This document shows positions 41,372 through 61,833 of a stretch of DNA of 62,074 bases, piece after piece. Within the stretch, counting starts at the first letter, position 1. Each line of letters starts with the position of its first letter. A program made the position numbers and the translations under genes. The notes under the pieces are model-generated. The model was not told the DNA's origin and did not search any database. It worked only from the letters and a program-made list of their open reading frames with translations. The stretch is from Sandaracinaceae bacterium (GTDB lineage: Bacteria > Myxococcota_A > Polyangia > Polyangiales > Sandaracinaceae), in NCBI GenBank assembly GCA_040218145.1, contig JAVJQK010000097.1:1-62074 (forward strand), read 5' to 3'.

Positions 41372-41952
41372 GCGACGGACGACGTTTCGCGAAGGGCCTC
41401 GAGGTCCGAGGGGAGCGGGACGACGCGGGTCGCCTGACCCTCTTCGCGCCCCGGCCCGGGCTGTGGCGCGACGCGCCGCGCGAGGGGGCGCTGGTTCGCC
41501 CTGGCGACGCGGTCGGTGAGCTCGAGGTGCTCGGGGTCGTGCACGCGCTCCGGGCCCCCGCCGACGCGTTCGGGGTCGTCTCCGGGCTCCCGGGCGGCCG
41601 CCGCCTCGGACGGCGCCCGGTCGACGCCCGCACCGCGCTGATGACCCTCGACCCCGAGGGCGTCAGCGGCGAGGAGGCGGCCAAGGTCGCGGCCGAGGCC
41701 GCCGCGGACGCGAGCGGGCCCGTGTTCCGCACCCCGCTCGGCGGCCGCTTCTACGCGCGCCCCTCCCCCGACGCCGATCCGTTCGTGACGCCCGGCCTCG
41801 CGCTGAAGGGCGGCGAGACGATCGCGCTCATCGAGGTCATGAAGACGTTCAACCGCGTGCAGTACGCGGGTGAGCCCGCCACCGTGAAGGCCGTCCGCGC
41901 GAAGGACGGAGACGACGTCGAGGCCGGCGACGTCTTGTTGGAGCTCGAATGA
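41368..41952 (+). CDS. Biotin carboxyl carrier protein of the acyl-CoA carboxylase
   Basis: 194 residues (ATGA overlap). The C-terminal lipoyl/biotinyl domain contains [19 protein letters not shown] with the biotin Lys159; the usual A-M-K-M box reads V-M-K-T here, a known variant in some carboxylase carriers. It ends [12 protein letters not shown]. The N-terminal half includes a second barrel-like segment ([30 protein letters not shown]), perhaps a degenerate biotinyl domain. It completes the three-subunit carboxylase and overlaps the transporter gene by ATGA. Confidence 0.88.
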
Positions 41953-43475
41953 GCGAAGAGGACGGAGACGACGAGGGCACGCTCCTCGACCGGTTCCTCC
42001 GGGTGTTCAGTGACGTGCGGCGAGGCGAAGGCGCCACCGCGCTCATCCTGCTGTTCACGATCTTCGTCCTGCTCGTCTGCTACTACGTCCTGAAGACCGT
42101 GCGCGAGCCGCTGGTGCTCGCCAGCGCGGAGCAGGATCTCCAGCTCCTGCGCGGCACGGGCCTGCCCGACTGGCTCGTCGACACGATCGTCCAGGGAGAG
42201 GGCGCGCAGCTGAAGGCGGTCGCGGCCGGCTTCCAGGCCCTGCTCCTGGCCGGCTTCGTGCCCGCCTACTCGTGGCTCGCCTCGAAGGTCACGCGCATCC
42301 GCCTGATCGTGGGCGTGACCCTCTTCTGGATCGCGTGCATCCAGCTGTTCTTCTTCCTGCGCCTCGCCGGCGTGCCGATGCTCGGCTTCTTCTTCTACAT
42401 CTGGGTCGGCATCTTCAGCGTCTCGATCATCGCGCAGTTCTGGTCGTTCGCGAACGACATCTACAGCGACGAGCAGGGCAAGCGGCTCTTCCCGATCATC
42501 GGGGTCGGCGCCACCGCGGGCGCCCCCGTCGGCTCATGGGGCGCGGGCGCGCTCTACGACTACATCGCCCCCGACGACGTGGAGCGCGCGGACCTCGACG
42601 GGCTGCAGACCTGGCTCGCGGACCTCGGGCTCGACCCGAGCTTCATCCTGCTCCAGGTCCCCGCGATCACGCTGCTCGTGTTCCTGGGCATGATGATCTG
42701 GGCCGCGCAGCGGAAGCGCCTGGCAGAGGGCGTGAGCGACGCGCCGCAGGAAGAGGACGAGGACAAGGGCAGCGCCAAGGACGGCTTCGCCCTCATCCTG
42801 AAGAGCCCCTACGTCCGGCTCATCGCGGCGGTGATCCTCACCCTGAACCTCGTCAACACGATGGGCGAGTTCTTGCTGAGCGACATGGTCGACCAGGCGG
42901 CGGAGCAGGCGGTCGCGGCGGGCACGGCCGCGAACGAGGGGAAGTGGATCGGGAGCTTCTACTCGAGCTTCTTCCTCTACGTGAACATCGCCGCGCTCGT
43001 GCTGCAGGCCTTCGTGGTCTCACGGCTGGTGAAGTACATCGGGCTCAAGGCGGTCCTCTTCGCGCTGCCGGTGGTGGCGCTCGGGAGCTACTCGCTCTTC
43101 GCCGCGGGCTTCGGGCTCGTGGTGCTCCGCTGGGCGAAGACGGCCGAGAACTCGACCGACTACTCCATCATGAACACGGGCAAGGCGATGGTCTGGCTGC
43201 CGACCACGCGCGCGGCCAAGTACCAGGGTAAGCAGGCCGTGGACACGTTCATCGTGCGCATCGGCGACCTCGCCTCGGCCGTGATGTTCCTGATCGGCAC
43301 CGCCGCGCTCGGCATGGGCCTCCAGGGCCTGGCCGCGGTGAACCTAGGCTTCGTGATCCTCTGGCTCGGGCTGACCTACCTGCTCGTGCGCAAGCACCAG
43401 CAGGTCGAGCGCGATCCCAGCGCCGACCCTGCGGCCAGCGCCGAGGCGGTCGAGCTCGAGAACGAAGCCGCCTGA
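41949..43475 (+). CDS. ADP/ATP translocase (Npt1/NTT, TLC family)-like transporter
   Basis: 508 residues from the ATG overlapping the biotin-carrier stop. It has 11-12 membrane segments. The region FWSFANDIYSDEQGKRLFPIIGVGATAGAPVGS matches the characteristic F-x-N-D-x-Y-x-x-x-x-G-K-R-L-F-P segment of the nucleotide transporter family. The pattern EFLLSDMVDQAAEQ and KYIGLKAVLFALPVVALGSYS is also family-like. Chlamydial, rickettsial and plastid NTT proteins exchange ATP for ADP. Free-living bacterial relatives are poorly characterised and may carry other substrates. It is coupled to the carboxylase genes. Confidence 0.8.
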   Translation: MSEEDGDDEGTLLDRFLRVFSDVRRGEGATALILLFTIFVLLVCYYVLKTVREPLVLASAEQDLQLLRGTGLPDWLVDTIVQGEGAQLKAVAAGFQALLLAGFVPAYSWLASKVTRIRLIVGVTLFWIACIQLFFFLRLAGVPMLGFFFYIWVGIFSVSIIAQFWSFANDIYSDEQGKRLFPIIGVGATAGAPVGSWGAGALYDYIAPDDVERADLDGLQTWLADLGLDPSFILLQVPAITLLVFLGMMIWAAQRKRLAEGVSDAPQEEDEDKGSAKDGFALILKSPYVRLIAAVILTLNLVNTMGEFLLSDMVDQAAEQAVAAGTAANEGKWIGSFYSSFFLYVNIAALVLQAFVVSRLVKYIGLKAVLFALPVVALGSYSLFAAGFGLVVLRWAKTAENSTDYSIMNTGKAMVWLPTTRAAKYQGKQAVDTFIVRIGDLASAVMFLIGTAALGMGLQGLAAVNLGFVILWLGLTYLLVRKHQQVERDPSADPAASAEAVELENEAA

Positions 43476-46667: not shown

Positions 46668-48083
46668 TCAGTAGGCGTTGCGGTGCACCTTGGGGCTGAA
46701 GACGGTGAGCAGGATGATCTTCAGGTCGAACCACAGGCCCCAGCGACGGATGTACTCGAGGTCGTGCTCGACCCGCTTCTCCATCTTCTCGAGCGTGTCG
46801 GTCTCGCCGCGCCAGCCGTTCACCTGCGCCCAGCCGGTCAGCCCGGGCTTGACCTTGTGGCGCAGCATGTAGCCGTGGATGCGCTTGCGGTACGCCTCGT
46901 TGTGGGCGACGGCGTGGGGACGCGGCCCCACCAGGCTCATCGAGCCCGTGACGACGTGGAAGAGCTGCGGCAGCTCGTCCAGCGAGAGCCGGCGGAGGAT
47001 CGCGCCGACGGGCGTGATGCGGCTGTCGTTCTTCTCGGCCTGCTTCACCTTGGCCCCGTCCTCCGCGACCGTCATCGAGCGGAACTTCAGGACGTGGATG
47101 ATCTCGCCGTCGAGCCCGTAGCGACGCTGCTGGAAGAACACGGGCCCCTTGCTCGTGAGCTTGATCAGCAGCGCGATGAGGGCCATCGGGAGAGCCGCGA
47201 TGGTGAGGAAGACCGTCCCCAGCACGATGTCCTCGAAGCGCTTGACCCAGCCGTCGATGCCGTAGAACGGCGTCTCGAACACGCTCACCACCGGGATGTC
47301 GTCGAGCGCGCTCCAGCGGCCGTGCAGCAGATCGAAGACGAAGAAGTCCGGCACCACGTAGACGCTGGCCGTGGTGTCGGCGAGGTCGCGCAGGAGCTTC
47401 TGCACGCGCGGCTCGGCCCGCATGGGGAGCGCGATGTAGAGGATGTCGATCTCCCCCTCGCGCGCCTTGCGCACCGCGTCGTCGAAGGTGCCCACCAGGT
47501 CGGGCAGATCCGCCTCCGGGGTGTGGAGGCGCTCGGGCGTGCGGTCGTCGAAGAAGCCGACCATCTCCATACCGAGCCACGGCGTCTCCGCGAGGTGGGC
47601 CGCCACGCGCTCGCCCATCTCGGTCATGCCGATCACCCCCGCGCGGCGCATGTTGCGGCCGCGCTTGCGCGCCTCCTGCAGGGCGAGCCGGAGCAGGCCC
47701 CGGCCGACGCTGATCAGGGTCGGCGCCCCGATGAACCAGCCAAGGGTGGCGACGCGGCTGAAGGTCGACGACTCCTTGGTGAAGAAGGCGGCGAGCAGCA
47801 GCGCGGTCAGCACGCCGCCCCACACGGCCCACACCCGGACCAGCTCCTTGTGGAGCGGCACGCCACGCCACGCGCGGTAGAGGCCCCCCGCCTCCGCGAG
47901 GAAGAGGAAGACGAGCAGAGCGCCGCCGGTGGCGACCGTGTGGTGGTTGTCCCACTCGCCGGCCGAGTCGTAGACCCAGAACGCGAGCGCGTGGGCGAGG
48001 ACGATCCAGGCGGCGTCGAGGAGACGCTGTACGAGCCCGGTCTTGTTGTGGAGGGGGCGAATGAATCCGCGCTGGCGAGGCAT
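46668..48083 (-). CDS. Undecaprenyl-phosphate sugar-phosphate transferase (WcaJ-type)
   Basis: 471 residues from the ATG at 48083; a longer frame upstream to 48356 is Arg-rich and not membrane-like. Five membrane segments are followed by a CoA-binding-like domain ([17 protein letters not shown]), and the bacterial sugar transferase domain at the C-terminus has [27 protein letters not shown] and [15 protein letters not shown]. Such enzymes start repeat-unit synthesis by loading a hexose-1-phosphate on undecaprenyl phosphate. It is divergent from the OPX gene, so the two sides of 48084-48372 probably carry promoters for the same surface polysaccharide system. Confidence 0.92.
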
Positions 48084-48372: not shown

Positions 48373-49401
48373 GTGAACGCACATCTGCCTCACACCGCCG
48401 TGCTGATTTTCGCCACGGTCTCTTTTTCCCTCTTGCCGGGCTGCATCGGCAGCCTGCCGACCCCGCCGACGGTGCCGGACGCGAACGCTGGCTTCCGCGC
48501 CATGGAGTCGACGCCCGCGCCCGGCGTGGACCAGGACGAGCCGCGCCCGATGGCGCTCTATCCGGGCGACGTGGTCGCGCTGCGCATGCAGGCGGCCGAC
48601 GTCGAGACCATCGAAGGACTGAGCGTCGACGAGCGTGGCATGCTGCACGTCCCTCTGGCGGGTGACGTCCAGGTCGCGGGGCTCCCGCTCGTGGACGCCG
48701 AGGAGCGCATCGAGCAGGCCATGCGGCGCTTCATCAGCACCGTGCGCGTCACGATCGTGATGAGTGACCCAGCGGGGCACGTCGCGTCGGTCATCGGCGC
48801 GGTGGGGGAGCAGGGCCGCGTCGTGATCGCGCCCGGCATGCGCGTGGCGGATCTCCTCGCCGCGGCAGGTGGGCCCGCCACGTCGAGCGAGGGCGGGTCG
48901 ACCACCCTGCTCGCCGATCTCTCGAGCGCCCGGCTGGTCCGCGGCGGCGAGGCGGTGCCGATCGACGTCGGTACCGCGGTGACCGGAGATCCTCGGCACA
49001 ACGTCTTCGTGCGACCGGGCGACTACCTCTACGTGCCGCCGCAGCTGCGCGGGCTGATCAGCGTGCTCGGCGAGGTGAACGGGGCGCGCGTGCTCCCGTT
49101 CCAGCCGGGCATCCGCCTCTCGCAGGCCCTGGCGATGGCGGGCGGAATCACTCGTGATGCCAACGGAGGCGACATCCGGATCGTCCGCGGCGGCCCCGAC
49201 GACGCGATGATCTACCGCGCCGGCATCGATCACGTGGTGAGCGGCCACTACGAGGACCCCGTGCTCGCGCCCGGCGACATCGTCTACGTGGGCTCGAGCG
49301 GCCTGGCAGATTTCCGCGACTTCACGACCGCGATCTCCCCGATCATCAGCATCGGCGCCACCACCGCGATCGGCGTCGCCGCCTTCAGCTCGGGCCCGTA
49401 G
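48373..49401 (+). CDS. OPX/Wza-like polysaccharide export lipoprotein
   Basis: 342 residues from a GTG at 48373 (GGAG 12 bases upstream). The signal peptide has its lipobox Cys at 24 (SLLPGC). The Poly_export region runs from LYPGDVVALRMQ through VDERGMLHVPLAGDVQVAGLPLVDAEERIEQAM. Two SLBB-like domains follow (ASVIGAVGEQGRVVIAPGMRVADLLAAAGG and ISVLGEVNGARVLPFQPGIRLSQALAMAGG). The C-terminal segment TTAIGVAAFSSGP is hydrophobic. It would form, or be part of, the outer-membrane exporter for the glycan built by this locus. It is the first gene of the plus-strand unit. Confidence 0.9.
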   Translation: MNAHLPHTAVLIFATVSFSLLPGCIGSLPTPPTVPDANAGFRAMESTPAPGVDQDEPRPMALYPGDVVALRMQAADVETIEGLSVDERGMLHVPLAGDVQVAGLPLVDAEERIEQAMRRFISTVRVTIVMSDPAGHVASVIGAVGEQGRVVIAPGMRVADLLAAAGGPATSSEGGSTTLLADLSSARLVRGGEAVPIDVGTAVTGDPRHNVFVRPGDYLYVPPQLRGLISVLGEVNGARVLPFQPGIRLSQALAMAGGITRDANGGDIRIVRGGPDDAMIYRAGIDHVVSGHYEDPVLAPGDIVYVGSSGLADFRDFTTAISPIISIGATTAIGVAAFSSGP

Positions 49402-49504: not shown

Positions 49505-52500
49505 ATGACCGCCGAGAACCCTTTCCGCTGCTACGTGATGGGCAGCGAATCTCTCCTCGTGCAGTGCACCGAGATCCTCCTCCGCGAAGGCCACAAGGTG
49601 CTGGGGGTGATCAGCGAGGCGGACGACATCGTCCGCTGGGCCGAGGATCAGAAGATCCCCGTGGTGCCGCCCGGGAAGGACCTCGCGTCGCGCCTCTCGG
49701 ACGACCCCTTCGAGTGGTTCTTCAGTCTCGCGAACCTCTCCATCATCCCGGACGACGTGCTCGCGAAGCCCACCGAGGGGGCGATCAACTTCCATGACGG
49801 CCCGCTGCCTCGCTACGCCGGCCTCAACGCGACGACCTGGGCCCTGCTCCACGGCGAGCGGACCCACGGCGTCAGCTTCCACCTCATCGAGGGCGGAGTG
49901 GACGAGGGCGACCTGCTCGCCCAGCGCGTCTTCGAGCTGAACGACCGGGAGACCGCGCTCACGCTCAACACGCGCTGCTACGAGCTCGGCATCGAGACCT
50001 TCGGACAGCTGGTCGAGCAGCTCGGCGCGGGCACGCACGAGCGCACCGAGCAGGACCTGGGCAAGCGCAGCTACTTCGGCAAGTTCGACCGCCCCGACGG
50101 CGGCTCCACCATCGACTGGGACCAGCCGGCGCACGTCATCGACGCGCTCGTCCGCGCGCTGGACTACGGCGGCTACCCGAACCCGGTCGGCGCGGCCAAG
50201 GTCGTGCTCGAGCGCGGCGTGCTGCTCCTCCCGGAGGTCGAGCGGGCCGCGGACAGCACCTCCGAGAAGCCCGGCACCGTGGTCGGCGTCGACGACGACG
50301 GCCTCGAGGTCGCCACGCAGACGGGCACCCTCCTCTTCCCGCGCGTGCTCGACGGCGAAGGTCGTCCGCTCACGGCGGAGGCCGCGTTCGCCCTCGGCGT
50401 GCAGCCCGGAGCGAGCCTGGTCGCGAGCCCCTCGACCCGGAAGCGGCTCGGGGAGCTGGACCGCGCGATGGCCAAAAACGAGGCCTTCTGGACGCGCCGG
50501 CTCTCCACCCTCGAGGCGGCGAAGATCCCGCAGGCCGATCACGCGACCGTCGCGAAGCCGAAGCAGGAGCGCCGCGCGATCGAGGCGACGGCCGCGCCGA
50601 CGCGGCTCTTCGCGGGGCTGGGCGCGTGGCTCGCGCGCGTCAGCGGCAAGCACGCCTTCGACGTGGCGCACCGGCCGCCGTCGCTCTCCGAGACCATCGC
50701 GGGGGCCGAGCGGCTCTACGCAGATCGCGTCCCGATGCGGCTCTCGGTCGATCTGGAGGCGCCGTTCTCCGCCCTCCTCGAGGCCACCGAGAAGGAGCTG
50801 GCGCGGGTCGACGCGAAGGGCACCTACCCCCTCGAGCTCTTCCACCGCCAGCCGAGCGCGCAGCGCCCGAGCTACGACGTGGTGGCGGAGCAGGTCACCT
50901 CGCTCGACGACTGGAGCCTCCCGAGCGGCGCGATCGCCGGGCTGATCACGGACGGGAGCCGCGCGGCCCTCGTCTTCGACGCGGAGCGGCTCGCGCCGGC
51001 CCAGGCGGACGCGATGCGCCAGCAGCTCGAGGCGCTCCTGCGCGGCGCCGACGAGACGCTCGTGGGTGACCTCCCGCTGCTCTCGGAGGGTGAGCGGCGG
51101 CGCCTCCTCGAGGAGTGGAACGACACCGCGAGGGACTTCCCGCGCGACCAGGGCGTGCACCAGCTCTTCGAGGCGCAGGTCGACCGCAGCCCCGACACGC
51201 AGGCGCTCGTCTACCGCGGCAGCGCGCTCACCTACGCGGAGCTGGACGCCAAGGCCAACCAGCTCGCGCACCGCCTCATCGGCCTCGGCGTGAAGGCCGA
51301 CACCCCCGTCGGCCTCTGCACCGACCGCAGCCTCGATCTCCTCATCGGCGCCCTCGGCATCCTCAAGGCGGGCGGCGCCTACGTGCCGCTCGACCCCAGC
51401 TACCCGAAGGATCGCCTGGCCTTCATGGTCGAGGACAGCGCCGCGCCCGTGATCGTCACGCTCTCCCGCACCCGAGACGTGCTCCCGGAGGGCGAGGCCA
51501 CGCGGGTCGTGCTCGACGAAGAGGACCTCGGCGGCCAGCCGACCACGCGACCCTCGGTCGACGGCTGGAGCAGCGACAACCTCGCCTACCTCATCTACAC
51601 GAGCGGCTCGACCGGCAAGCCCAAGGGCGTGATGGTCGAGCACCGGAACGTCGCGAACTTCTTCACCGGCATGGACGCGGAGATCCCGCACGAGCCGGCC
51701 GGCCGCTGGCTCGCGGTGACCAGCCTCAGCTTCGACATCTCGGTGCTCGAGCTGTTCTGGACGCTCGCCCGCGGCTTCACGGTGGTGCTCTCGAGCGACG
51801 AGGACCGCGCGCTCGTCAGCGGCGGCGGCGCCGGCGTCAGCCAGTACAGCCACCGCAAGATCGACTTCAGCCTCTTCTACTTCGCATCCGACGCGGGCGA
51901 GAACGCGACCGACAAGTACAAGCTGCTCCTCGACGGCGCCCGCTTCGCCGACGAGAACGGCTTCGCCGCGGTCTGGACCCCGGAGCGTCACTTCCACGCG
52001 TTCGGCGGCCTCTACCCGAACCCGTCGGTGGCCAGCGCCGCGCTCTCGACCATCACCAAGAACGTCAAGCTGCGCGCCGGCAGCTGCGTCAACCCGCTCC
52101 ACCACCCGGTCCGCGTGGCCGAGGAGTGGGCCCTCGTCGACAACCTCTCGAACGGGCGCGTGGGCATCAGCTTCGCCGCGGGCTGGCAGCCCAACGACTT
52201 CGTCATCCGACCGGAGGCGTTCGAGAACAACAAGCAGCGCATGCTCGACGAGATCGACATCATCCGTCGCCTCTGGCGCGGCGAGGGCGTGACCTTCGAG
52301 GGGCCGACCGGCCCGGTCGAGGTCAAGACCCTGCCCCGCCCGGTGCAGAAGGAGCTGCCGTTCTTCATCACCGCGGCTGGCAACCCGCAGACCTTCGAGC
52401 TGGCCGGGACCCTCGGGGGCGGCATCCTGACCCACCTGCTGGGCCAGAGCGTCGACGAGGCCAAGGAGAAGATCGGGATCTACCGCAAGGCCTGGAAGGA

Positions 52501-54118
52501 CGCGGGGCACCCCGGAGAGGGGCACGTCGTCCTGATGCTCCACACCTTCGTCGGCGACGACGAGGAGAGCGTGAAGGAGATCGTGCGCGAGCCGATGAAG
52601 GCCTACCTCAAGAGCTCGATGATGCTGATCCAGCAGCACGCCTGGTCGTTCCCGGCGTTCAAGAAGCACGCGCGCGAGGACAAGTCCTTCAAGGACAACT
52701 TCCTCAACCTCTCCGCGGAGGACACCGACGCGTTGCTCGACCACTCGTTCGAGCGGTACTACGAGACGAGCGCGATGTTCGGCACCCCCGAGAGCTGTCG
52801 CGAGCAGGTCGAGCGCTGCCGCGGGATCGGCGTCGACGAGATCGCGTGTCTGATCGACTTCGGGATCGACAGCGAGACCGTGCTCACGCACTTCCCGCAG
52901 CTCAACACGCTGCGGGCCGAGGCGACGGCGCCGCGCGAGGACCTCTCCGAGGACGACTACTCCATCGCCGCCCAGCTCGAGCGTCACGCGATCACGCACA
53001 TGCAGTGCACGCCGTCGATGGCGCAGATGCTCGTGATGAACGACGAGGCGCGGACCGCGCTCGGCGGGCTGAAGCACCTGATGGTCGGGGGCGAGGCGTT
53101 CCCGGGCGCGCTCGCGAAGGCGCTCCGAGAGGCGACCTCGGCCAGCATCACGAACATGTATGGCCCCACGGAGACCACGATCTGGTCTTCCACGGAGGCG
53201 GCCGAGCCGGGAGAGGGGACCGTCGCGATCGGCACCCCCATCGCGAACACCCAGCTCTACGTGCTCGACGAGCGGCGCCAGCCGGTGCCGGTCGGCGTCC
53301 CGGGGGAGCTCTACATCGGCGGCGACGGCGTCACGCGCGGCTACTGGAAGCGCGAGGATCTGACGGCCGAGCGCTTCGTGGCCGATCCATTCCGAGGTGG
53401 CGAGGCGCGCATGTACCGCACAGGCGACGAGGTGCGCTGGCGCGAGGACGGCCACCTCGAGTTCCTCGGCCGCATGGACCACCAGGTGAAGCTCCGCGGC
53501 TACCGCATCGAGCTGGGAGAGATCGAGGCGCGCCTCCGGCTGCACGACAGCGTGCGCGAGGCGGTCGTGATCGCGCGGGAAGACACGCCGGGAGACAAGC
53601 GTCTGGTCGGCTACCTGGTGACCGACGGAACCTTCGACGCGGCCGCTCTCAAGGCCCACCTCGGCGAGACGCTGCCCGACTTCATGGTGCCGGCGCACCT
53701 CGTGAAGATGGATCGCTTCCCGCTCACCCCGAACAAGAAGATCGATCGCAAGGCGCTGCCCCGCCCGGAGGCCGCCGTCACGCGCGCCGAGGAGCACGTC
53801 GCGCCGGCGGGCGAGGTCGAGGAGAAGATCGCGGGCGTGTGGAAGCGCATCCTCGGCCTCAGCGAGGTCGGCACCCGGGACAACTTCTTCGAGCTCGGCG
53901 GCCACTCGCTCCTCGCCGTGCAGGCGCACCGCGAGATCGCCGAGGCGACGGGCGCGAAGCTCACCGTGACCGACATCTTCCGCTTCCCCACGATCCAGGC
54001 CCTCGCGGATCACCTCGAGGGCGACGGCGGCGGCAACGAGGCGCTCCAGAAGAGCGCCGATCGCGCGGCGGCGCGCCGACAGGCGCTGGGCCGGCGCAGG
54101 GTCCTACGGCGGCGGTGA
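49505..54118 (+). CDS. One-module NRPS-like enzyme: formyltransferase - C remnant - A (with inserted luciferase-like monooxygenase) - T
   Basis: 1,537 residues. 1-310: methionyl-tRNA-formyltransferase-like domain with Asn95/His97 in INFHDGPLPRYAG and Asp133 in GGVDEGDLL. About 380-540: the C-terminal part of a condensation domain; the catalytic HHxxxDG motif is absent. About 545-1415: adenylation domain with LIYTSGSTGKPKG (698-708), NMYGPTETT (1217-), YRTGD (1304-), GYRIELGEIE and NKKIDRKALP (1410-). It is split after FTVVLSS by a luciferase-like monooxygenase of about 350 residues (785-1133; RHFHAFGG, SCVNPLHHPVRVAEEWALVD). 1425-1515: carrier protein with phosphopantetheine Ser1468 in FFELGGHSLLAV. 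There is no thioesterase or reductase. It probably activates one amino acid, which may be formylated and oxidised while bound. It overlaps the PPTase gene (GTGA). Position in a glycan locus suggests aminoacyl transfer to a sugar or lipid (inference). Confidence 0.9.
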   Translation: MTAENPFRCYVMGSESLLVQCTEILLREGHKVLGVISEADDIVRWAEDQKIPVVPPGKDLASRLSDDPFEWFFSLANLSIIPDDVLAKPTEGAINFHDGPLPRYAGLNATTWALLHGERTHGVSFHLIEGGVDEGDLLAQRVFELNDRETALTLNTRCYELGIETFGQLVEQLGAGTHERTEQDLGKRSYFGKFDRPDGGSTIDWDQPAHVIDALVRALDYGGYPNPVGAAKVVLERGVLLLPEVERAADSTSEKPGTVVGVDDDGLEVATQTGTLLFPRVLDGEGRPLTAEAAFALGVQPGASLVASPSTRKRLGELDRAMAKNEAFWTRRLSTLEAAKIPQADHATVAKPKQERRAIEATAAPTRLFAGLGAWLARVSGKHAFDVAHRPPSLSETIAGAERLYADRVPMRLSVDLEAPFSALLEATEKELARVDAKGTYPLELFHRQPSAQRPSYDVVAEQVTSLDDWSLPSGAIAGLITDGSRAALVFDAERLAPAQADAMRQQLEALLRGADETLVGDLPLLSEGERRRLLEEWNDTARDFPRDQGVHQLFEAQVDRSPDTQALVYRGSALTYAELDAKANQLAHRLIGLGVKADTPVGLCTDRSLDLLIGALGILKAGGAYVPLDPSYPKDRLAFMVEDSAAPVIVTLSRTRDVLPEGEATRVVLDEEDLGGQPTTRPSVDGWSSDNLAYLIYTSGSTGKPKGVMVEHRNVANFFTGMDAEIPHEPAGRWLAVTSLSFDISVLELFWTLARGFTVVLSSDEDRALVSGGGAGVSQYSHRKIDFSLFYFASDAGENATDKYKLLLDGARFADENGFAAVWTPERHFHAFGGLYPNPSVASAALSTITKNVKLRAGSCVNPLHHPVRVAEEWALVDNLSNGRVGISFAAGWQPNDFVIRPEAFENNKQRMLDEIDIIRRLWRGEGVTFEGPTGPVEVKTLPRPVQKELPFFITAAGNPQTFELAGTLGGGILTHLLGQSVDEAKEKIGIYRKAWKDAGHPGEGHVVLMLHTFVGDDEESVKEIVREPMKAYLKSSMMLIQQHAWSFPAFKKHAREDKSFKDNFLNLSAEDTDALLDHSFERYYETSAMFGTPESCREQVERCRGIGVDEIACLIDFGIDSETVLTHFPQLNTLRAEATAPREDLSEDDYSIAAQLERHAITHMQCTPSMAQMLVMNDEARTALGGLKHLMVGGEAFPGALAKALREATSASITNMYGPTETTIWSSTEAAEPGEGTVAIGTPIANTQLYVLDERRQPVPVGVPGELYIGGDGVTRGYWKREDLTAERFVADPFRGGEARMYRTGDEVRWREDGHLEFLGRMDHQVKLRGYRIELGEIEARLRLHDSVREAVVIAREDTPGDKRLVGYLVTDGTFDAAALKAHLGETLPDFMVPAHLVKMDRFPLTPNKKIDRKALPRPEAAVTRAEEHVAPAGEVEEKIAGVWKRILGLSEVGTRDNFFELGGHSLLAVQAHREIAEATGAKLTVTDIFRFPTIQALADHLEGDGGGNEALQKSADRAAARRQALGRRRVLRRR
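51857..52903 (+). other. Luciferase-like monooxygenase domain inserted in the adenylation domain
   Basis: Residues about 785-1133 of the NRPS-like protein. The TIM-barrel monooxygenase starts RKIDFSLFYFASDAG and ends around HFPQLNTLR. It matches the natural-product luciferase-like monooxygenase type that occurs inside NRPS/PKS proteins. It uses reduced flavin and oxygen. Adenylation motifs A3 lie before it and A5 onward after it, so the adenylation fold resumes at about 1150. Confidence 0.85.
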
Positions 54119-54783
54119 TCGAGGACGCGCTCAGCGACCTGCTCGGCCCCCGGGTGCGCTTCGCGGTGCGGATCCCCGGAGAGGTGCCTCTGACGGCGCT
54201 CATGGCGCCGGAGGAGCACCTCGCCGCGCGCGCCGTCGACAAGCGCCGCTACGAGCTCGCCGCGGGTCGGGACGCCGCGCGGGCCGCGCTCCGTCTACTC
54301 GGCGCCCCCACGATCGCGATCGGGCGCGGCGGACGCGGGGAGCCTCTGTGGCCCGAGGGCGTCGTGGGCACGATCACGCACACCGACACGCTCTGCGTGG
54401 CCGCGGTCGCGGACGCCGGGGCGATGCGCGGGCTCGGGCTCGACGCCGAGCCAGACGAGCCGCTCGACCGCGAGCTGTGGTCCCTGATCACGACGCGCGA
54501 GGAGCACGTCGCCCTGCAGGATGACCCGCGCCCCGGTGAGCGCGCGCGGCGCACCTTTTGCGCGAAGGAGGCAGCCTACAAGTGCCAGTACCCGCTCAGC
54601 GGGACCTTCCTCGAATTCGAGGACGTGGTGATCCGGCACGACGCCGACGATCGCTTCGACGCCGTCTTCCAGCGCAGCGCGCCCCCGTTCGCGGCGGGCG
54701 CGACGATCCACGGTCGCTTCGTGCGGGCCGGGGCGCACGTGATCGCGGGTGCCTGGATCGACAACGAAGGAGAGACGCGCTGA
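54115..54783 (+). CDS. 4'-phosphopantetheinyl transferase (EntD/Sfp-like)
   Basis: 222 residues from a GTG overlapping the NRPS stop (GTGA). The PPTase core is visible: GRGGRGEPLWPEGVVGTITHT, the metal-binding Asp110 and Glu112 in LGLDAEPDEPLDR, and FCAKEAAYKCQYP with Lys151, Glu152 and Lys156. It uses CoA to load phosphopantetheine on the carrier domain (Ser1468 of the preceding protein). Translational coupling with a single-module NRPS strongly suggests a dedicated partner. EntD-type length (about 200-230) fits. Confidence 0.92.
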   Translation: MIEDALSDLLGPRVRFAVRIPGEVPLTALMAPEEHLAARAVDKRRYELAAGRDAARAALRLLGAPTIAIGRGGRGEPLWPEGVVGTITHTDTLCVAAVADAGAMRGLGLDAEPDEPLDRELWSLITTREEHVALQDDPRPGERARRTFCAKEAAYKCQYPLSGTFLEFEDVVIRHDADDRFDAVFQRSAPPFAAGATIHGRFVRAGAHVIAGAWIDNEGETR

Positions 54784-54871
54784 TGTTGCCGCGGAGCGTG
54801 GTTGTGGCGACTTCGGCCGGTGCTAGCTGGATGGTTCGAGTACCATGTCAGCGTTTTCGAGGAGCACCGCG

Positions 54872-56893
54872 ATGAGCGGCCGAGAGATGGATCTCGACGA
54901 CGAAGAGACCAAGCCGTCTCGTCCGGGCTACCCGGTCGATTGGCGCCGCGTTCTGAGGGCCATCTCCAGAGGGAAGTGGTGGCTCCTGATCGCGGCCGCG
55001 GTGGGCGGTCTGATCGGCGTCGTCATCGGGAAGTTCGTGATGCAGCACACGTACGAAGCGAGCACCTCGCTTCGGTACGAAGGCTTGCCCGGCGACGACT
55101 TCCAGGAGCCGCAGCGGGCCTTGCCGGCTCTGGTCGCGGTGACCCACACCGACCCGATCATGATCGAGCTGCGCGCCCGCACGAACAAGGACGGGGCCAC
55201 CCTCGACCTCATGCGGCGCATGGTCCAGGTGACGAGCGACGCGCAGAGCGGCCTGGTCACGTTCACGACCACCGGCGGCACGGCCGAGGAATCGGCGGAC
55301 ATGGCGAACACGCTCGTGGACGTCTTCCTCGAGCACCACCGCGAGCGTCGCAGCGCCGAGCTCCGCGCGGAGATGGCGAGCCTCGACGAGCGCATCGCCG
55401 CGTCCGAGAACGAGGCCGCGACCGCGCGCCGCGCCTACGACTCCTTCCGCGAGGCCAACGGCATCACGGATCTGACGGCGGAGCAGGAGCAGGCCATCGA
55501 CCAGGCGGCCGACCTGCGCTCGCAGGCGGACCTCGCCCAGGCGGAGATCATGGCGCTCGAGGCCCGCGTCCGGCAGCTGACCGAGGCGCGCGAGCGCACG
55601 CCCCGCATGGAGACGGTGAGCACGAGCAGCGGCGGCTCGAGCCGCGTCCGGGAGCTGGAGGCGCGCCTCGCCGAAGCGCGCGGTCAGGGCATGAGCGAGC
55701 AGCACCCGACGGTGCAGGCGCTCCAGCGTCAGATCTCGGCGCTGCGAAGCTCGGGCGGCGGCGGGGGCGGCTCGCGCACGGCGCGCAGCAGCCTCTACGA
55801 GCAGATCGAGACCAGCCTCTCGGAGGCGGAGACCGAGCTGTCGGCGGCGCGCGAGCGGCACAACAGCCTCGAGCAGCTCGCGGGCACCGCGCAGGAGCGC
55901 ACCAACCGGTTCAGCGCGATGGAGGGCCAGGCGGCCAACCTGCTCGCGCAGGTCAACGTCAAGCAGGCCCTCGTCAACGAGCTCAACGAGCAGCGCGCGG
56001 GCATCGAAGATCAGCTGCGCGACATCGAGACCGGCTTCCGCACCGTCGCGGAGGCGCGTCCCCCCGAGAGCGCGGTCCCCTCGAAGAAGAAGTACGCGGT
56101 CGCGGGCGGCATCCCGCTCCTCTTCGTGACGGTGATGCTCGGCATGCTGCTCTACCGCGAGCTCCGCGGGCTGCGCGTCATCACGCCGACCGAGGTGGCC
56201 TGGTGGGGCAACGGGCCGGTGATCGGCATGACGACCTGGCCCCGCGATCCACGCGCGCTGATCGACCTGATCGCGGACATGGACGACTTCGCGCCCGACG
56301 CGCGCGGCACGATGCTGGTGGTCGGGGCCACCGACTCCGAGCAGGAGCTCGCGAGCGAGATCGCCGGCCAGCTCAACCACGACTGGAGCTCGACCACGCT
56401 CATCGACGTGCCCGTGGTGGGCGCGCTCCCGCCGGGCGATGACCCCGCGCCGATCACGACGCCGTCCTCCTCCCGCGGCCACCACGACGTCTACGACGAC
56501 GACGAGGTGCTCAGCGGCGAGATCCACGACGGCCCGACCGAGATCGTGCTCGCCGGCAGCCCCGCCGACACCCTCGCGATGGGGGCCCCGAGCTACGCGC
56601 CGCCGCCGCGCCCGATCAGCGACGACCCGGCCGACCGGCTGATCTGCACCGCGTGGAACGGCCCGCCCGAGGGGCAGGCCCTGCGCCGCGCGGCCCGGCT
56701 CGCCGAGCGGGTGCTGGTGGTGGTGACGAGCGGGAACATCAAGGCGACCGATCTCGCCCAGACGCAGACCCGGCTCGGGCGCGATGGAGCCATCGGCTAC
56801 GTGCTCGTCGGCGCGAGCGAGAGCACGGCCAAGCTCCCCGACCGCGAGGGCCCGGTGGAGCACTTCTGGGTGCCCTCCCCGTCTCCTCGCTGA
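54872..56893 (+). CDS. Wzz/Wzc-like polysaccharide co-polymerase with degenerate kinase domain
   Basis: 673 residues from the ATG at 54872, with GAGGAG seven bases upstream; the ATG at 54845 lacks a site. Two membrane segments at about 36-57 and 408-430 flank a long coiled-coil periplasmic domain (helices about 165-390), the PCP-2/Wzc layout. The C-terminal cytoplasmic part (about 445-673) has the tyrosine-kinase-like fold pattern, but the P-loop position reads VVGATDSEQELASE instead of a G-x-x-x-x-G-K-(S/T) motif, and there is no Tyr-rich tail. It is probably an inactive pseudokinase that controls chain length or scaffolding. It starts 88 bases after the PPTase. Confidence 0.85.
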   Translation: MSGREMDLDDEETKPSRPGYPVDWRRVLRAISRGKWWLLIAAAVGGLIGVVIGKFVMQHTYEASTSLRYEGLPGDDFQEPQRALPALVAVTHTDPIMIELRARTNKDGATLDLMRRMVQVTSDAQSGLVTFTTTGGTAEESADMANTLVDVFLEHHRERRSAELRAEMASLDERIAASENEAATARRAYDSFREANGITDLTAEQEQAIDQAADLRSQADLAQAEIMALEARVRQLTEARERTPRMETVSTSSGGSSRVRELEARLAEARGQGMSEQHPTVQALQRQISALRSSGGGGGGSRTARSSLYEQIETSLSEAETELSAARERHNSLEQLAGTAQERTNRFSAMEGQAANLLAQVNVKQALVNELNEQRAGIEDQLRDIETGFRTVAEARPPESAVPSKKKYAVAGGIPLLFVTVMLGMLLYRELRGLRVITPTEVAWWGNGPVIGMTTWPRDPRALIDLIADMDDFAPDARGTMLVVGATDSEQELASEIAGQLNHDWSSTTLIDVPVVGALPPGDDPAPITTPSSSRGHHDVYDDDEVLSGEIHDGPTEIVLAGSPADTLAMGAPSYAPPPRPISDDPADRLICTAWNGPPEGQALRRAARLAERVLVVVTSGNIKATDLAQTQTRLGRDGAIGYVLVGASESTAKLPDREGPVEHFWVPSPSPR

Positions 56894-56901
56894 GGTATTC
56901 G

Positions 56902-57411
56902 ATGCGTCGAGAAGCGTCTCGGAAGAAGATCGTCGCCATCAGCTCGGGAGGCGGTCACTGGATCGAGCTCCTCCGCCTCCGCCCCGCCTTCGACGGCCAC
57001 TTCGTGGTCTGGGTCACCGTGAGCGAGGCCTACCGCGCGCACGTCGACGGACCGCTGCGGGTGATCGACGACGTGACCCGCTGGGACCGGCTCGGCCTGC
57101 TGAAGTGCGCCTGGCAGGTGACGCGCATCCTCCTGAGCGAGCGGCCCGACGTGGTCGTGAGCACGGGCGCCCTCCCCGGCTTCTTCGGCGTGGTGCTCGC
57201 GAAGCGGCTCGGCATCCGGACCGTCTGGGTCGACAGCCTCGCCAACGTGGAGGAGCTGTCGATGAGCGGGCAGAAGGTCGGCGCGCACGCCGATCTGTGG
57301 CTGACGCAGTGGCCGGAGCTCGCGCGCGAGGGCGGCCCGCTCTACGCGGGGAGCGTGCTCGGGGAGCTCGACCGCCCCTCGGAGTCCCCCGTCATGGCGG
57401 AGGCCGAGTGA
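56902..57411 (+). CDS. Alg14/PssD-like glycosyltransferase subunit
   Basis: 169 residues from the ATG at 56902, with GAGG six bases upstream. It begins KKIVAISSGGGHWIELLRLRPAF, continues with VVSTGALPGFFGVVLAKRLGIRTVWVDSLANVEELSMSG, and matches the Alg14-type acceptor-binding half of a two-part GT28-like enzyme. The catalytic donor-binding half follows in a GTGA overlap. The donor sugar is unknown (GlcNAc in yeast; glucuronic acid in rhizobial PssDE). Confidence 0.88.
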   Translation: MRREASRKKIVAISSGGGHWIELLRLRPAFDGHFVVWVTVSEAYRAHVDGPLRVIDDVTRWDRLGLLKCAWQVTRILLSERPDVVVSTGALPGFFGVVLAKRLGIRTVWVDSLANVEELSMSGQKVGAHADLWLTQWPELAREGGPLYAGSVLGELDRPSESPVMAEAE

Positions 57412-57887
57412 AGCTCTTCGTCACCGTGGGCGCGCAGATGCCCTTCGATCGCCTCATCGAGGCCGTCGACGCCTGGGCAGCGACGCAGGACGACGTGGAG
57501 ATCCTGGCGCAGATCGGGGACTCCGAGGTGTCGCCTCGCCACCTGACGCACACGCGCTTCCTCGAGCCGGTGGAGTTCGACCGCGCCTACGACGAGGCCG
57601 ACGCCGTCATCGGCCACGCCGGCATCGGCACCCTCTTCGCGGCCCTCGAGCGCGGCAAGCCGATCGTCGTGCTCCCGCGCGAGGCGGCGCGCCGCGAGAC
57701 GCGGAACGACCACCAGATCGCGACCGCGAAGGCCTTCGCCCGGTTCGCCGGCGTGCACGTCGCCTGGAACGAAGCCGAGCTTCCCGCCAAGCTCGGCACG
57801 CTCTCCCGCTCTCGAACCGGGCCGCAGCTGGGCGCCTACGCGTCCGGCCCGCTCGTCGAGCGGATCTCCGCTTTCATCGACTCGTGA
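57408..57887 (+). CDS. Alg13/PssE-like glycosyltransferase subunit
   Basis: 159 residues from a GTG overlapping the Alg14-like stop. It has LFVTVGAQMPFDRLIEAVDAW, HAGIGTLFAALERGKPIVVLPR and a C-terminal RNDHQIATAKAFARF, the Alg13-type donor-binding domain with the G-H-A-G-x-G-T motif. With the preceding gene it forms one transferase acting on a lipid-linked acceptor at the inner membrane. It overlaps the epimerase gene by GTGA. Confidence 0.88.
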   Translation: MKLFVTVGAQMPFDRLIEAVDAWAATQDDVEILAQIGDSEVSPRHLTHTRFLEPVEFDRAYDEADAVIGHAGIGTLFAALERGKPIVVLPREAARRETRNDHQIATAKAFARFAGVHVAWNEAELPAKLGTLSRSRTGPQLGAYASGPLVERISAFIDS

Positions 57888-58837
57888 GGCAGACCTTGAA
57901 GATCCTCGTCACCGGAGGCGCCGGCTTCATCGGCAGCCACGTCGCGGACGCGCTCCTCGAAGAGGGGCACAGCGTGGTCGTGCTCGACGACCTCAGCAGC
58001 GGACGCGCCGAGAACGTGCCCGAGAAGGCGCTCTTCCTCGAGGGCGACCTGCGGGACGCGGCGCTCGTGGACCGCGCGTTCGCCGAGCACGACTTCGACG
58101 TGGTCTGCCACCAGGGCGCGCAGACGAGCGTCAGCGTCTCCACCCGCGAGCCCGTGCGCGACGCGGAGATCAACGTGATCGGCGGGCTCAACGTGCTCGA
58201 GGCTGCGCGCGCGCACGGCATCGCCCGCTTCGTCTTCGCCTCGACGGGCGGCGCCATCTACGGCGACATCCCCGAGGGCCAGCGCGCGGGCGAGGGATGG
58301 CCACCGCAGCCCATCAGCCCCTACGCGTGCTCGAAGCTCGCGTTCGAGCGCTACCTCGCGGCCTACCACCACGAGCACGGCACCCCCTCGACCATCCTCC
58401 GCTACGCCAACGTCTACGGCCCGCGCCAGGACCCCCACGGCGAGGCCGGCGTGGTCGCCATTTTCTGCCAGCGCCTGGCGAGCGGAGAGAAGATCCGCAT
58501 CAACGCCATGCGCGAGGTCGGCGACGCCGGCTGTGTGCGCGACTACGTCTACGTGGCCGACGTCGTGAAGGCGAACCTGCTCGCCATCCAGGGCAAGCTC
58601 GAGGGCAAGGTCATCAACGTCGGCAGCGGCGAGGGGACCTCCACCCTCCAGCTCGCGGAGCGCATCGAGGCGGCCCTCGGCGTCAAGACCGACAAGGAGT
58701 GGGGCACGCGGCGCGCGGGCGATCTCGAGCGCTCGGTGCTCGAGCCCAACGACGAGCTCCAGCGGCACACGGGCCCGGCGACGCCGATCGCGGACGGCAT
58801 CCGAGAGACGGCGCGCTGGTTCGCGGGACGGGCGTGA
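57884..58837 (+). CDS. NAD-dependent nucleotide-sugar epimerase (UDP-glucose 4-epimerase-like SDR)
   Basis: 317 residues from a GTG overlapping the Alg13-like stop. The Rossmann motif is VTGGAGFIGSHVADALLEEGH (G-x-x-G-x-x-G), then LDDLSSG, STGGAIYGD with the catalytic Ser/Thr region, YACSKLAFERYL (Y-x-x-x-K) and RYANVYGPRQDP. It belongs to the extended SDR epimerases/dehydratases. It would make a sugar donor for the glycan. The exact reaction (4-epimerase, uronate epimerase or dehydratase) cannot be set here. Confidence 0.9.
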   Translation: MRQTLKILVTGGAGFIGSHVADALLEEGHSVVVLDDLSSGRAENVPEKALFLEGDLRDAALVDRAFAEHDFDVVCHQGAQTSVSVSTREPVRDAEINVIGGLNVLEAARAHGIARFVFASTGGAIYGDIPEGQRAGEGWPPQPISPYACSKLAFERYLAAYHHEHGTPSTILRYANVYGPRQDPHGEAGVVAIFCQRLASGEKIRINAMREVGDAGCVRDYVYVADVVKANLLAIQGKLEGKVINVGSGEGTSTLQLAERIEAALGVKTDKEWGTRRAGDLERSVLEPNDELQRHTGPATPIADGIRETARWFAGRA

Positions 58838-58841
58838 TCAC

Positions 58842-60758
58842 ATGTGCGGCATCGCCGGCGCAGTCGGTCTGATCGAGAGCGGGCTCCCCGACGCGGTCGC
58901 GCGCATGACCGACGCGCAGGCGCACCGCGGGCCCGACCAGGACGGGCAGTGGCGGAGCGGGGAGCGGGGCCGCGGCGCGGTGCTCGGCCACCGCCGCCTC
59001 TCCATCCTCGACCTGAGCGAGGCGGGCCGCCAGCCGATGATCGACCCCGAGACGGGCGTCGTCATCGCCTACAACGGCGAGGCCTACAACTTCGGCGAGC
59101 TGGCCGCGGAGCTGCGCGCGCTCGGCGTCGAGCTGAAGTCCACGAGCGACACCGAGGTCGTGCTGAAGGCGTACGCTCGCTGGGGAGAGAAGGCGATTGC
59201 GCGCCTCCGCGGCATGTTCGCCATCGCGCTCTGGGACCCGCGGGACCAGACCCTGCTCCTCGCGCGCGACCGGCTGGGCATCAAGCCGCTCTACTACGCC
59301 GAGGTCGACGGCGCGCTCCTCTTCGCGTCCGAGATCCGCGCCATGCTCGCGTCCGAGAAGATCGCGCGGCGCCTCGACCCGAGCGCGCTCGAGCGCTTCC
59401 TATGGCACGGCTTCGTCCCCGGGCCCGGCACCCTGATCGAGGGCGTGAAGCTGCTGCCCGCGGGCACGTGCATGCGCATCCCGCTCGAGGGCCGGCCGTC
59501 CCGCCCCGCGCCCTACTGGACGCTGCCGAAGCACCGGCCGGTGGGCGAGGACGAGGCGGTGGCGGACCTGTCGGAGCGCCTGAACGAGGCGGTGAAGCTG
59601 CGCCTGATCGCGGACGTGCCGCTCGGCATCTTCCTGAGCGGCGGGGTCGACTCGAGCGCGGTCGCGGCGCTCGCCCAGCGCGCGGCGGACGCGCCGGTCA
59701 CCACCTTCAACATCTCGTTCGAGGAGGCGCGCTACGACGAGTCGAAGTACGCGCGCCAGGTGGCCGAGAAGCTCGGCACCGAGCACCGCGAGATCACCCT
59801 GACCGAGCAGGACTTCACCGGTCACCTCGACGAGGCGCTCGAGTCCATCGACCAGCCCACCTTCGACGCGATCAACACCTGGTTCGTGAGCCGCGCGGTC
59901 AAGCAGGCGGGGCTGACGGTCGCGCTGGCCGGCACCGGGGGCGACGAGCTCTTCGGCGGCTACGCGAGCTTCACCGACATCCCGAAGGCGCGCCGGGTGG
60001 CCAGCGCGCTCGGCCCCGTCCCGCAGCGCGCCAAGGCGGCGCTGGCCGACGCCGTCGTCGCCGCGAAGACCGGCCGCGCGAGCGAGGTCTCGCCGCAGAC
60101 CCGCTGGGGGAAGCTGGCCGACGTGCTCGGCACCCGAGGCGACCGGCTCGCGCTCTACCAGACCAGCTACGCGCTCTTCACGCGCGAGATGAACCGTCAG
60201 CTCGCGCTCCGCCCGAGCGGCACCCTGGACTGGGGGCTCGACGTGGCCCGCGCGGCGGAGCTGCGGGAGCTGATCGACGGTGAGCCCGATCTGCACGCGG
60301 TGAGCCTGCTCGAGCTGTCGTCGTTCCTGGGGGAGCGCCTGCTCCGGGACACCGACGCGGCCTCGATGGACGTCTCGCTCGAGGTGCGCGTGCCGCTGCT
60401 CGATCACCTCGTGGTCGAGAGCCTGGCCCGCGTGCCGATCGCGCGCCGCTTCGAGCCGCTCCGGCGCAAGCAGCTGCTGCGCGAGATGATGGCGGACGAC
60501 CTCGACCCGGCGATGTTCGACCGCCCGAAGGCCGGCTTCGAGCTCCCGCTCGCCGTCTGGTGCCGTCGCGGGCTCGGTCCGAAGCTCGCCAACACCTTCC
60601 GCGATCTCGTGCTCGCGCACCGGATCGGCCTCAACGGCGAGGCGGTGGGACGCGTCTGGCGCGCCTTCGACAAGGGCGGAGCCGGGGTCTACTGGTCCCG
60701 CGTTTGGGCCCTATTCGTCCTTCTGAGATGGTGCGAGGCGCACGGCGTCGAGGCGTGA
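58842..60758 (+). CDS. asnB: Asparagine synthetase-type glutamine amidotransferase (AsnB)
   Basis: 638 residues. It starts MCGIAGAVGL, so Cys2 is the glutaminase nucleophile after Met removal. Glutaminase residues include HRGPDQDGQW and YNGEAYN. The ATP pyrophosphatase loop is FLSGGVDSSAVAA at about 264-276, and GTGGDELFGGY follows. It starts four bases after the epimerase. In polysaccharide clusters such enzymes often amidate uronic acids or similar groups rather than make asparagine. It could also act on the amino acid carried by the NRPS product (inference). Confidence 0.9.
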   Translation: MCGIAGAVGLIESGLPDAVARMTDAQAHRGPDQDGQWRSGERGRGAVLGHRRLSILDLSEAGRQPMIDPETGVVIAYNGEAYNFGELAAELRALGVELKSTSDTEVVLKAYARWGEKAIARLRGMFAIALWDPRDQTLLLARDRLGIKPLYYAEVDGALLFASEIRAMLASEKIARRLDPSALERFLWHGFVPGPGTLIEGVKLLPAGTCMRIPLEGRPSRPAPYWTLPKHRPVGEDEAVADLSERLNEAVKLRLIADVPLGIFLSGGVDSSAVAALAQRAADAPVTTFNISFEEARYDESKYARQVAEKLGTEHREITLTEQDFTGHLDEALESIDQPTFDAINTWFVSRAVKQAGLTVALAGTGGDELFGGYASFTDIPKARRVASALGPVPQRAKAALADAVVAAKTGRASEVSPQTRWGKLADVLGTRGDRLALYQTSYALFTREMNRQLALRPSGTLDWGLDVARAAELRELIDGEPDLHAVSLLELSSFLGERLLRDTDAASMDVSLEVRVPLLDHLVVESLARVPIARRFEPLRRKQLLREMMADDLDPAMFDRPKAGFELPLAVWCRRGLGPKLANTFRDLVLAHRIGLNGEAVGRVWRAFDKGGAGVYWSRVWALFVLLRWCEAHGVEA

Positions 60759-60828: not shown

Positions 60829-61833
60829 ATGGCCGAGCCCTTCCGACCCGTCGAGCGCCCCGAGGGACGCGCCTATTGCCTGATCTCGCCGTGCCGAGAC
60901 GAGGCGAAGTACCTGCGCACCACGCTCGAGACGACCTGCACCCAGACCGTGCCGCCCGCGCTGTGGGTCGTGGTCGATGACGGGTCCACCGACGCGACGC
61001 CCGAGATCCTCGCCGAGTACGCCGCGAAGTACGACTTCCTGAAGGTCGTCACGCGCAAGGATCGTGGCGGCCGCGCCGTGGGCCCGGGCGTGATCGAGGC
61101 GTTCTACGAGGGGCTCAGCCACATCGACCTGGACGACTTCGACTACGTCTGCAAGTTCGACTGCGACCTCGAGATGCCGCCCCGCTACTTCGAGCGGGTG
61201 ATGGAGCGCATGGAGGCCGACCCCTACCTCGGCAACCTCTCCGGCAAGCTCTTCGAGCGCAAGGACACGGGCGAGCTCTGGGAGGAGCGCACGGGCGACG
61301 AGAACGCGGTCGGGCCGGCGAAGTTCTACCGGACGGCGTGCTTCCAGGAGATCGGCGGCTTCGTGCGCGAGGTGTCCTGGGACGGCATCGACGGCCACGT
61401 CTGCCGGATGAACGGCTGGATCGCGCAGAGCATCGACGACCCGGAGATGCGCATCGTGCATCTCCGGCCGATGGGCTCGAGCCAGCAGAACATCAAGGTC
61501 GGCCGCGTGCGCTGGGGCCGCGGCAAGTACTTCATGGGCAGCGCGTTCTATTACGTGCTCGCCTCGGCCGCGTACCGCTCGATGGAGCCGCCCTGGATCT
61601 GGGGCGGGCTCGGCATCACGTGGGGCTACTTCAAGGCGATGATCGAGGGGCACCCCCGCTACGACAACCCCGAGTACCGCCGCTACCTGCGCCGCTTCGA
61701 GCGCAACCAGCTCTTGATGGGCAAGAAGCGCGCGCTCGAGCGCGAGAACGCGCGGCTCCGCGAGCACTTCGAGCCCAAGGCCGAGATGAAGCGCAGCGCC
61801 GCGCCAGCCCGAGCGGCCGCAAGCTCTTTGTAA
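60829..61833 (+). CDS. Family 2 glycosyltransferase
   Basis: 334 residues from the ATG at 60829, with GAGGAGAG eight to nine bases upstream. The GT-A fold shows YCLISPCRDEAKYLRTTL, VVVDDGSTDATPE (Asp50/Asp51) and the D-x-D region FDYVCKFDCDLEMPP. The acceptor side has AKFYRTACFQEIGGF and WDGIDGHVCRMNGW. No membrane helices are obvious, so it acts at the inner face of the membrane on a lipid-linked acceptor. It is separated from asnB by the 14-bp repeats. The C-terminus is rich in Arg, Glu and Ala. Confidence 0.9.
   Translation: MAEPFRPVERPEGRAYCLISPCRDEAKYLRTTLETTCTQTVPPALWVVVDDGSTDATPEILAEYAAKYDFLKVVTRKDRGGRAVGPGVIEAFYEGLSHIDLDDFDYVCKFDCDLEMPPRYFERVMERMEADPYLGNLSGKLFERKDTGELWEERTGDENAVGPAKFYRTACFQEIGGFVREVSWDGIDGHVCRMNGWIAQSIDDPEMRIVHLRPMGSSQQNIKVGRVRWGRGKYFMGSAFYYVLASAAYRSMEPPWIWGGLGITWGYFKAMIEGHPRYDNPEYRRYLRRFERNQLLMGKKRALERENARLREHFEPKAEMKRSAAPARAAASSL

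Follow-up and report, generated by a model that had tools for sequence, protein, structure and literature searches.

A polysaccharide co-polymerase with a fused, predicted BY pseudokinase from a Sandaracinaceae bacterium and its kinase-dead clade

Closest Described Systems

Wzc-type machines are thought to require cycles of Tyr phosphorylation for the opening and closing of their rings. According to the available portion of PMC12004946, from which the descriptions of the published pseudokinase systems below are also taken, Wzc and CapAB assemble into rings when unphosphorylated, and these rings break upon Tyr phosphorylation. The same source describes EcpK/EpsV of Myxococcus xanthus, a pair published in 2025, as a PCP-2 system independent of phosphorylation, reports a scaffold role proposed for EcpK and HfsB, and names, after Cuthbertson et al., the fused PCP-2/BY pseudokinases SMc01795, BCETI_6000729, Mlr8439 and VV1_2305 (PMC12004946). 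Kinase-dead PCP-2 systems are thus not unprecedented, as EcpK/EpsV, HfsB/HfsA and the listed fused cases are known (PMC12004946).

The protein described here, a membrane protein of the kind with which bacteria make and export long sugar chains, is encoded in a window of 62,074 nucleotides (the whole stretch of DNA that was analysed), which is an entire contig of an 11-Mb genome in 148 contigs; the host belongs to the Sandaracinaceae, in the order Polyangiales. It resembles EcpK/EpsV in joining a PCP-2 part with a domain of BY-kinase fold that lacks the Walker motifs and the Tyr tail, in belonging to the same phylum and in having a five-stranded core; however, EcpK is a separate protein that retains the strand after the P-loop position (PMC12004946), whereas the domain of the window is fused and carries a linker replacing the middle strands. 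Moreover, the transferase and the OPX protein of the window are not EpsZ and EpsY, as judged by NCBIfam. The proteins listed by Cuthbertson et al. are likewise single chains with lost catalytic residues, but belong to other phyla and are likened here by description (PMC12004946). The holdfast system HfsA/HfsB of Caulobacter would be alike in having a pseudokinase partner that is essential for the polymer and phosphorylation-independent, but this system consists of two proteins and comes from another lineage (PMC12004946). Wzc (PCP-2a, with an active BY-kinase) shares the layout and the predicted fold of the window's protein but has the Walker motifs and the Tyr tail that are absent here, and it falls in a separate clade even inside the same genomes. 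In addition, Pseudomonas PslE (PDB 9v75, 9v6l) matches in its periplasmic half the profile A1, which derives from the fused family, and the available portion of the 2019 Psl paper makes no mention of Walker motifs.

No description of the fused kinase-dead family was found in the open-access literature; for polysaccharide co-polymerases combined with Sandaracinus, the available part of PMC7310880 mentions only a BPS-type cluster. Two things appear to be new. One is the fused family, which extends across one order, has a signature of its own (W-x-G-P..G..LRRxxR; DRxG..FW) and carries a linker replacing the middle of the kinase fold; the other is a stand-alone relative that resembles EcpK, neighbours an EpsV-like PCP and is seen in other families of the host's order. 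The fused kinase-dead form occurs across many families of this order, where it shares cells with canonical Wzc and has a two-gene counterpart in sister families, and these coexisting forms are a natural experiment on the role of a kinase fold without catalysis. Furthermore, the single chain is an easier cryo-EM target than the EcpK/EpsV pair.

Architecture and Predicted Fold

The gene lies in an uninterrupted open reading frame (54845-56893, plus strand) of 682 amino acids. The start at 54872, which gives 673 amino acids and has AGGAG 7 nt upstream, is preferred by the codon-usage gene caller, and the residue numbering throughout counts from 54845 (682-aa form). The features of the protein and of its neighbourhood are collected in Table 1.

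Table 1. Features of the co-polymerase gene and of the neighbouring genes in the window.
Feature	Position	Strand	Basis
WcaJ-type priming phosphoglycosyltransferase	46668-48083	-	TIGR03023, 530 bits, over cut-off; Bac_transf
Outer-membrane polysaccharide export (OPX) protein	48400-49401	+	Poly_export, SLBB; best NCBIfam EpsE, 76 bits, below cut-off
NRPS-like protein	49505-54118	+	formyltransferase, adenylation and carrier domains
Phosphopantetheinyl transferase of the NRPS-like protein	54115-54783		
PCP-2 co-polymerase with fused, predicted BY pseudokinase domain	54872-56893	+	673 aa; 682 aa from start 54845
Transmembrane helix 1 (residues 33-65)	54941-55039	+	AlphaFold2 model; Wzz Pfam match 32-79
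Periplasmic alpha/beta base and coiled coils (69-402)	55049-56050	+	model; profile A1 matches Wzc and PslE chains
Transmembrane helix 2 (414-439)	56084-56161	+	AlphaFold2 model
Predicted cytoplasmic BY pseudokinase domain (443-676)	56171-56872	+	fold Z to Wzc and CapAB
Walker A place, VVGATDSEQELASE (492-505), without GK[ST]	56318-56359	+	sequence, alignment
Disordered, poorly conserved linker (516-594) replacing middle strands	56390-56626	+	pLDDT <50 over most; conservation 0.23
Signature W-x-G-P-x-x-G-x-x-L-R-R-x-x-R (604-618) at Walker B place	56654-56698	+	alignment A1
C-terminal signature D-R-x-G-x-V-x-x-F-W (666-675) where BY-kinases carry the Tyr tail	56840-56869	+	alignment A1
Two-part PssD/PssE (Alg14/Alg13)-like glycosyltransferase	56902-57411 + 57408-57887	+	below NCBIfam cut-offs
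NAD epimerase	57884-58837	+	
Asparagine synthase-like amidotransferase	58842-60758	+	
GT2 glycosyltransferase	60829-61833	+	

The sole Pfam match of the protein is to Wzz at residues 32-79 (E 2.7e-5), just under the cut-off (24.8 bits against 25.5), and NCBIfam gives sub-threshold matches only, to chain-length determinants, Wzc and coiled-coil proteins. In the predicted model, two transmembrane helices flank a large alpha-helical periplasmic domain, as in a PCP-2 co-polymerase. The full-length AlphaFold2 model, computed from 25 aligned sequences, has a mean pLDDT of 82, and its best Foldseek match is Wzc (E 2e-16). An earlier note on this DNA, made from its letters alone, had described a Wzc-like co-polymerase, a layout that the model bears out and that is shared by the 25 aligned sequences of the fused family (alignment A1).

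The same note had taken the segments RVLVVVTSG and GAIGYVLVGA as still fitting the kinase fold and had proposed an overlay on Wzc or CapB as a check. When the C-domain was modelled alone (257 residues, 23 sequences), its core reached a pLDDT above 90, with strands at 459-462, 489-494, 600-603, 622-628 and 650-655, and these two segments are the last two strands of the model. The overlay, run with AlphaFold2 and VIA-align, points to a BY-kinase fold, with Z of about 11-13 to Wzc/CapAB: the values against the kinase domains of Wzc, CapAB and BceF range over 9.5-12.9, with 12.9 to Wzc 9exo_A, 11.2 to Wzc 3la6 (rmsd 2.6 over 144 residues) and 11.2 to CapAB 3bfv, and the first unrelated row stands at Z 6.7. 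Foldseek with the C-domain alone was weak (best E 9e-3), its top rows being all Wzc. According to these models, the cytoplasmic half has a BY-kinase fold adjoining the PCP-2 part. Between the fused domain and canonical BY-kinases, hhalign detected no direct sequence link (probability 1.4%); consequently, the homology of the C-domain to BY-kinases rests on the predicted fold, on its position and on an EcpK-like bridge.

Loss of the Catalytic Motifs

The Walker A' consensus of BY-kinases is phi3-D-x-D-x-R. It is unmatched in the window's protein, where a degenerate remnant, TLIDVP, lies in the disordered linker. Assigned by order along the chain, the P-loop strand is kept but runs into GATDSEQELASE; a linker of about 80 residues stands where the Walker A' strand and the next ones belong; and the Walker B strand reads ICTAWNGPP, with Walker B and D-x-PP missing. 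The segment VVGATDSEQELASE comes after the strand of residues 488-494, which in BY-kinases runs into the P-loop, and it holds no GK[ST], as the claim that the Walker A place has no P-loop would have it. The chain terminates in DREGPVEHFWVPSPSPR and not in a Tyr tail, with 1 Tyr within its last 60 residues, so that the claimed absence of a C-terminal Tyr cluster is confirmed as well.

The linker of the window's family has the lineage motif DGPTEI. Linkers that are otherwise unalignable share a short motif, DGPTE[IV] in the window's family and [ST]GPYP[VI] in another, with Thr or Tyr at the same place; a linker motif common to all members was rejected, GPTE[IV] and [ST]GPYP[VI] being lineage-specific only.

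Conservation, Distribution and Canonical Kinases

The dead kinase domain is the best-conserved part of the protein. Conservation, taken as the average share of the commonest residue, reaches 0.57 and 0.60 for the two ordered halves of the C-domain, as against 0.23 in the linker and 0.36-0.50 in the periplasmic and membrane parts. R614, R615 and R618 of the first signature and D666, R667 and G669 of the second are identical in 25/25 rows of A1, as are P407, E450, W454, W465 and P466, and W604 is identical in 24 of the 25; the FW end is missing in some family members. As calculated by Nei-Gojobori for four pairs, the dN/dS of the C-core is 0.05, 0.12, 0.15 and 0.33, and that of the periplasmic part, for the same pairs in order, 0.12, 0.18, 0.23 and 0.13, the C-core being at least as constrained as the periplasmic part in three of the four. 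The L025/L027 pair is reversed, with a faster C-domain (0.33-0.34 versus 0.13), and the motifs are weaker in L024, L025, L026 and L027. Being the best conserved and under purifying selection, the dead domain is therefore taken to be functional.

Relatives were found in 30 of the 56 near genomes, the host's own included (E 1e-3), and a profile search with the C-domain matched 30 of the 377 genomes of the phylum, 27 of them in the host's order. The matches outside this order (G128, G136 and G140) were judged to be due to chance, no protein with the family motifs being present in their ORF lists, and tblastn for direct relatives on plasmids returned none. The earlier suggestion to check whether myxobacterial relatives share the loss has a positive answer: GK[ST] occurs in the last 280 amino acids of 0/26 relatives, and each of the 26 has at most 3 Tyr in its last 60 residues. 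Partial, contig-end or very divergent sequences (L012, L013, L016, L019, L024, L029 and L030) were left out of some counts: the motif count, which retains 26 of 30 sequences, omits L012, L019, L029 and L030; alignment A1 omits these and L024; and the tree omits L012, L013, L016, L019, L029 and L030 but includes in addition the paralogues L078, L044 and L066. In the tree of the membrane-plus-periplasmic half, one branch splits 27 kinase-dead rows from 30 canonical rows, with support of 100/100. The kinase-dead family is one clade in the host's order, and the kinase loss is the state of the whole clade, not a quirk of the window's protein.

A second, long-linker branch of the kinase-dead family is seen in a protein of 936 aa at L078:11308-14118 (G001:C1, near 4243715), whose scanned neighbours are not polysaccharide genes, and similar long-linker forms also occur in G006, G011, G019, G039 and G046.

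Regarding canonical kinases, TIGR01007 is matched (E 1e-25) in 43 of the 56 near genomes. Among 30 canonical Wzc proteins taken from the host's order, 27 match EGK[ST] and every one carries 4 or more Tyr among its last 60 residues, and the G, K and T are invariant in 17/17 aligned canonical sequences (A4), including the three without EGK[ST]. The window's genome has one canonical BY-kinase above the TIGR01007 cut-off, on another contig (C113), together with an OPX, a Wzy_C protein and a transferase of its own. A TIGR01007 match at E 1e-25 is missing from 7 of the 30 fused-family genomes; a wider search of five of these gave a divergent or partial BY-kinase in three, and MinD/ParA-like matches only in G039 (95% complete) and G042 (98% complete). 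The idea that many fused-family genomes are without any BY-kinase was thereby cut to these two. In G022, beside a priming transferase, a split PCP-2b occurs with a stand-alone BY-kinase that carries GGGTGKT and almost no Tyr tail (L120:1441-3598).

Two-Gene Relatives in the Same Order

Myxococcus-like EPS loci were sought via the EpsY family, found in 76 of 377 genomes at E 1e-30 with none over the cut-off, and stretches from seven genomes were examined. G390, G021 and G373 each encode an EpsV-like PCP (500-512 aa) whose chain stops about 25 residues past TM2, with a small soluble protein near it; the small protein is also present in G020. The fused-domain profile, at E 7e-4 and 4e-3 for two of these four proteins, recognises it better than the canonical BYK profile does. 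From the gene setting and the published description, we infer that this small protein is probably the orthologue of M. xanthus EcpK. A profile search for EcpK-like small proteins matched 26 of the order's 144 genomes; these belong to families f12 and f7, and the weakest match (G040) is doubtful. Among the genomes shared with the near-genome search, both the fused and the EcpK-like kinds occur only in G027.

When compared by hhalign, the EcpK-like proteins and the fused domain score 31.9 (the maximum of 60 column shuffles being 19.1), with a probability of 33%, or 56% with 4 EcpK-like sequences; the EcpK-like proteins and canonical BYK score 23.9 (shuffle maximum 18.3; probability 4%), and the fused domain and canonical BYK 21.7 (shuffle maximum 20.7). 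These profile scores may be read as a chain from BYK through the EcpK-like proteins to the fused domain, a reading that is moderately supported. The LRRxxR loop and D666-R667 are missing from the EcpK-like proteins. Descent of the PCP half from EpsV is not claimed: the tree joins the fused and EpsV-like rows (98/96), but the branch measures 2.3, and most canonical Wzc rows score higher with A1 than the EpsV-like rows do.

Proposed Role of the Dead Domain

The earlier note considered the protein a probable pseudokinase and expected chain-length control without Tyr phosphorylation cycles. The former is supported by the predicted fold, the motif loss and the conservation of the dead domain, and the same evidence points to the latter; the Tyr phosphorylation switch cannot run here, because the P-loop and the Tyr tail are absent. 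As the predicted kinase fold is kept, the catalytic parts are gone and the loss is common across the order, the domain is therefore probably a scaffold and not an enzyme, and we regard it as likely that the protein is a PCP-2 co-polymerase whose fused BY pseudokinase acts as a phosphorylation-independent scaffold of the PCP ring. The ring of subunits would stand, as usual, between Wzy and the OPX protein, and the pseudokinase domains, as its cytoplasmic base, would hold or switch it by protein contacts, replacing the Tyr phosphorylation cycles. The fused protein would then act like the Myxococcus EcpK/EpsV pair, as one chain, with the invariant arginines and the DRxG..FW terminus as candidate subunit contacts.

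As regards a conserved alternative nucleotide-binding motif, which the earlier note had named as refuting its reading, the family has an invariant Gly/Arg loop (W604-R618), located at the Walker B end. This loop, W-x-G-P-x-x-G-x-x-LRRxxR, could provide a non-standard site through which the domain still binds nucleotide or phosphorylates, as it is Gly-rich, has three invariant arginines and follows a core strand, D666-R667 being invariant as well; such activity seems improbable, however, since the Lys-Ser/Thr P-loop is missing in 26/26 sequences, neither a paired acidic Walker B nor a Tyr tail is present, and the loop is not at the P-loop position. It is also unlikely, in our estimate, that the dead domain was rebuilt as a sensor, in which the WGP..G..LRRxxR loop and D666-R667 would bind an anionic ligand, putatively a cyclic dinucleotide, a lipid head group or a phosphopeptide, and switch the PCP ring.

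Dependence in trans on the canonical Wzc kinase of the cell, as hetero-oligomer partner or substrate, would fit the presence of a canonical BY-kinase in 43/56 near genomes, the window's included. We give it a low probability, as the Wzc of this genome has a separate OPX, Wzy_C protein and transferase beside it on the other contig, the fused-family genomes G039 and G042 have only MinD/ParA-like matches, the fused protein offers no Tyr tail for phosphorylation, and active BYKs are dispensable for EPS in Myxococcus, as stated in the available text of PMC12004946. The lost motifs, the deleted middle, the weaker conservation in L024-L027 and the existence nearby of PCPs without a cytoplasmic domain could also suggest a vestigial, decaying domain, with the membrane and periplasmic parts sufficing for chain-length control; yet no other region of the protein is as conserved, and the domain has low dN/dS in three of four pairs and invariant residues of surface type (Arg, Asp, Trp), which makes such decay very improbable.

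Gene Neighbourhood

The genes for the priming transferase, the OPX protein and the PCP are grouped in the window, and likewise in G019 and G033. No kinase gene is found among the neighbourhood genes scanned, nor are Wzx and Wzy, and the contig stops 241 bases past the last gene. The NRPS-like protein has a formyltransferase, followed by an adenylation domain that carries an inserted MupA-type luciferase-like monooxygenase (TIGR04020) and then by a carrier domain; its homologue adjoins the OPX and PCP genes in G001 and G002, and its product may be an N-formyl acyl group that decorates the polysaccharide. The window also holds a homologue of TLC-type ATP/ADP transporters at 41949-43475 on the plus strand (Pfam E 1.8e-17), a type known chiefly from intracellular bacteria and plastids.
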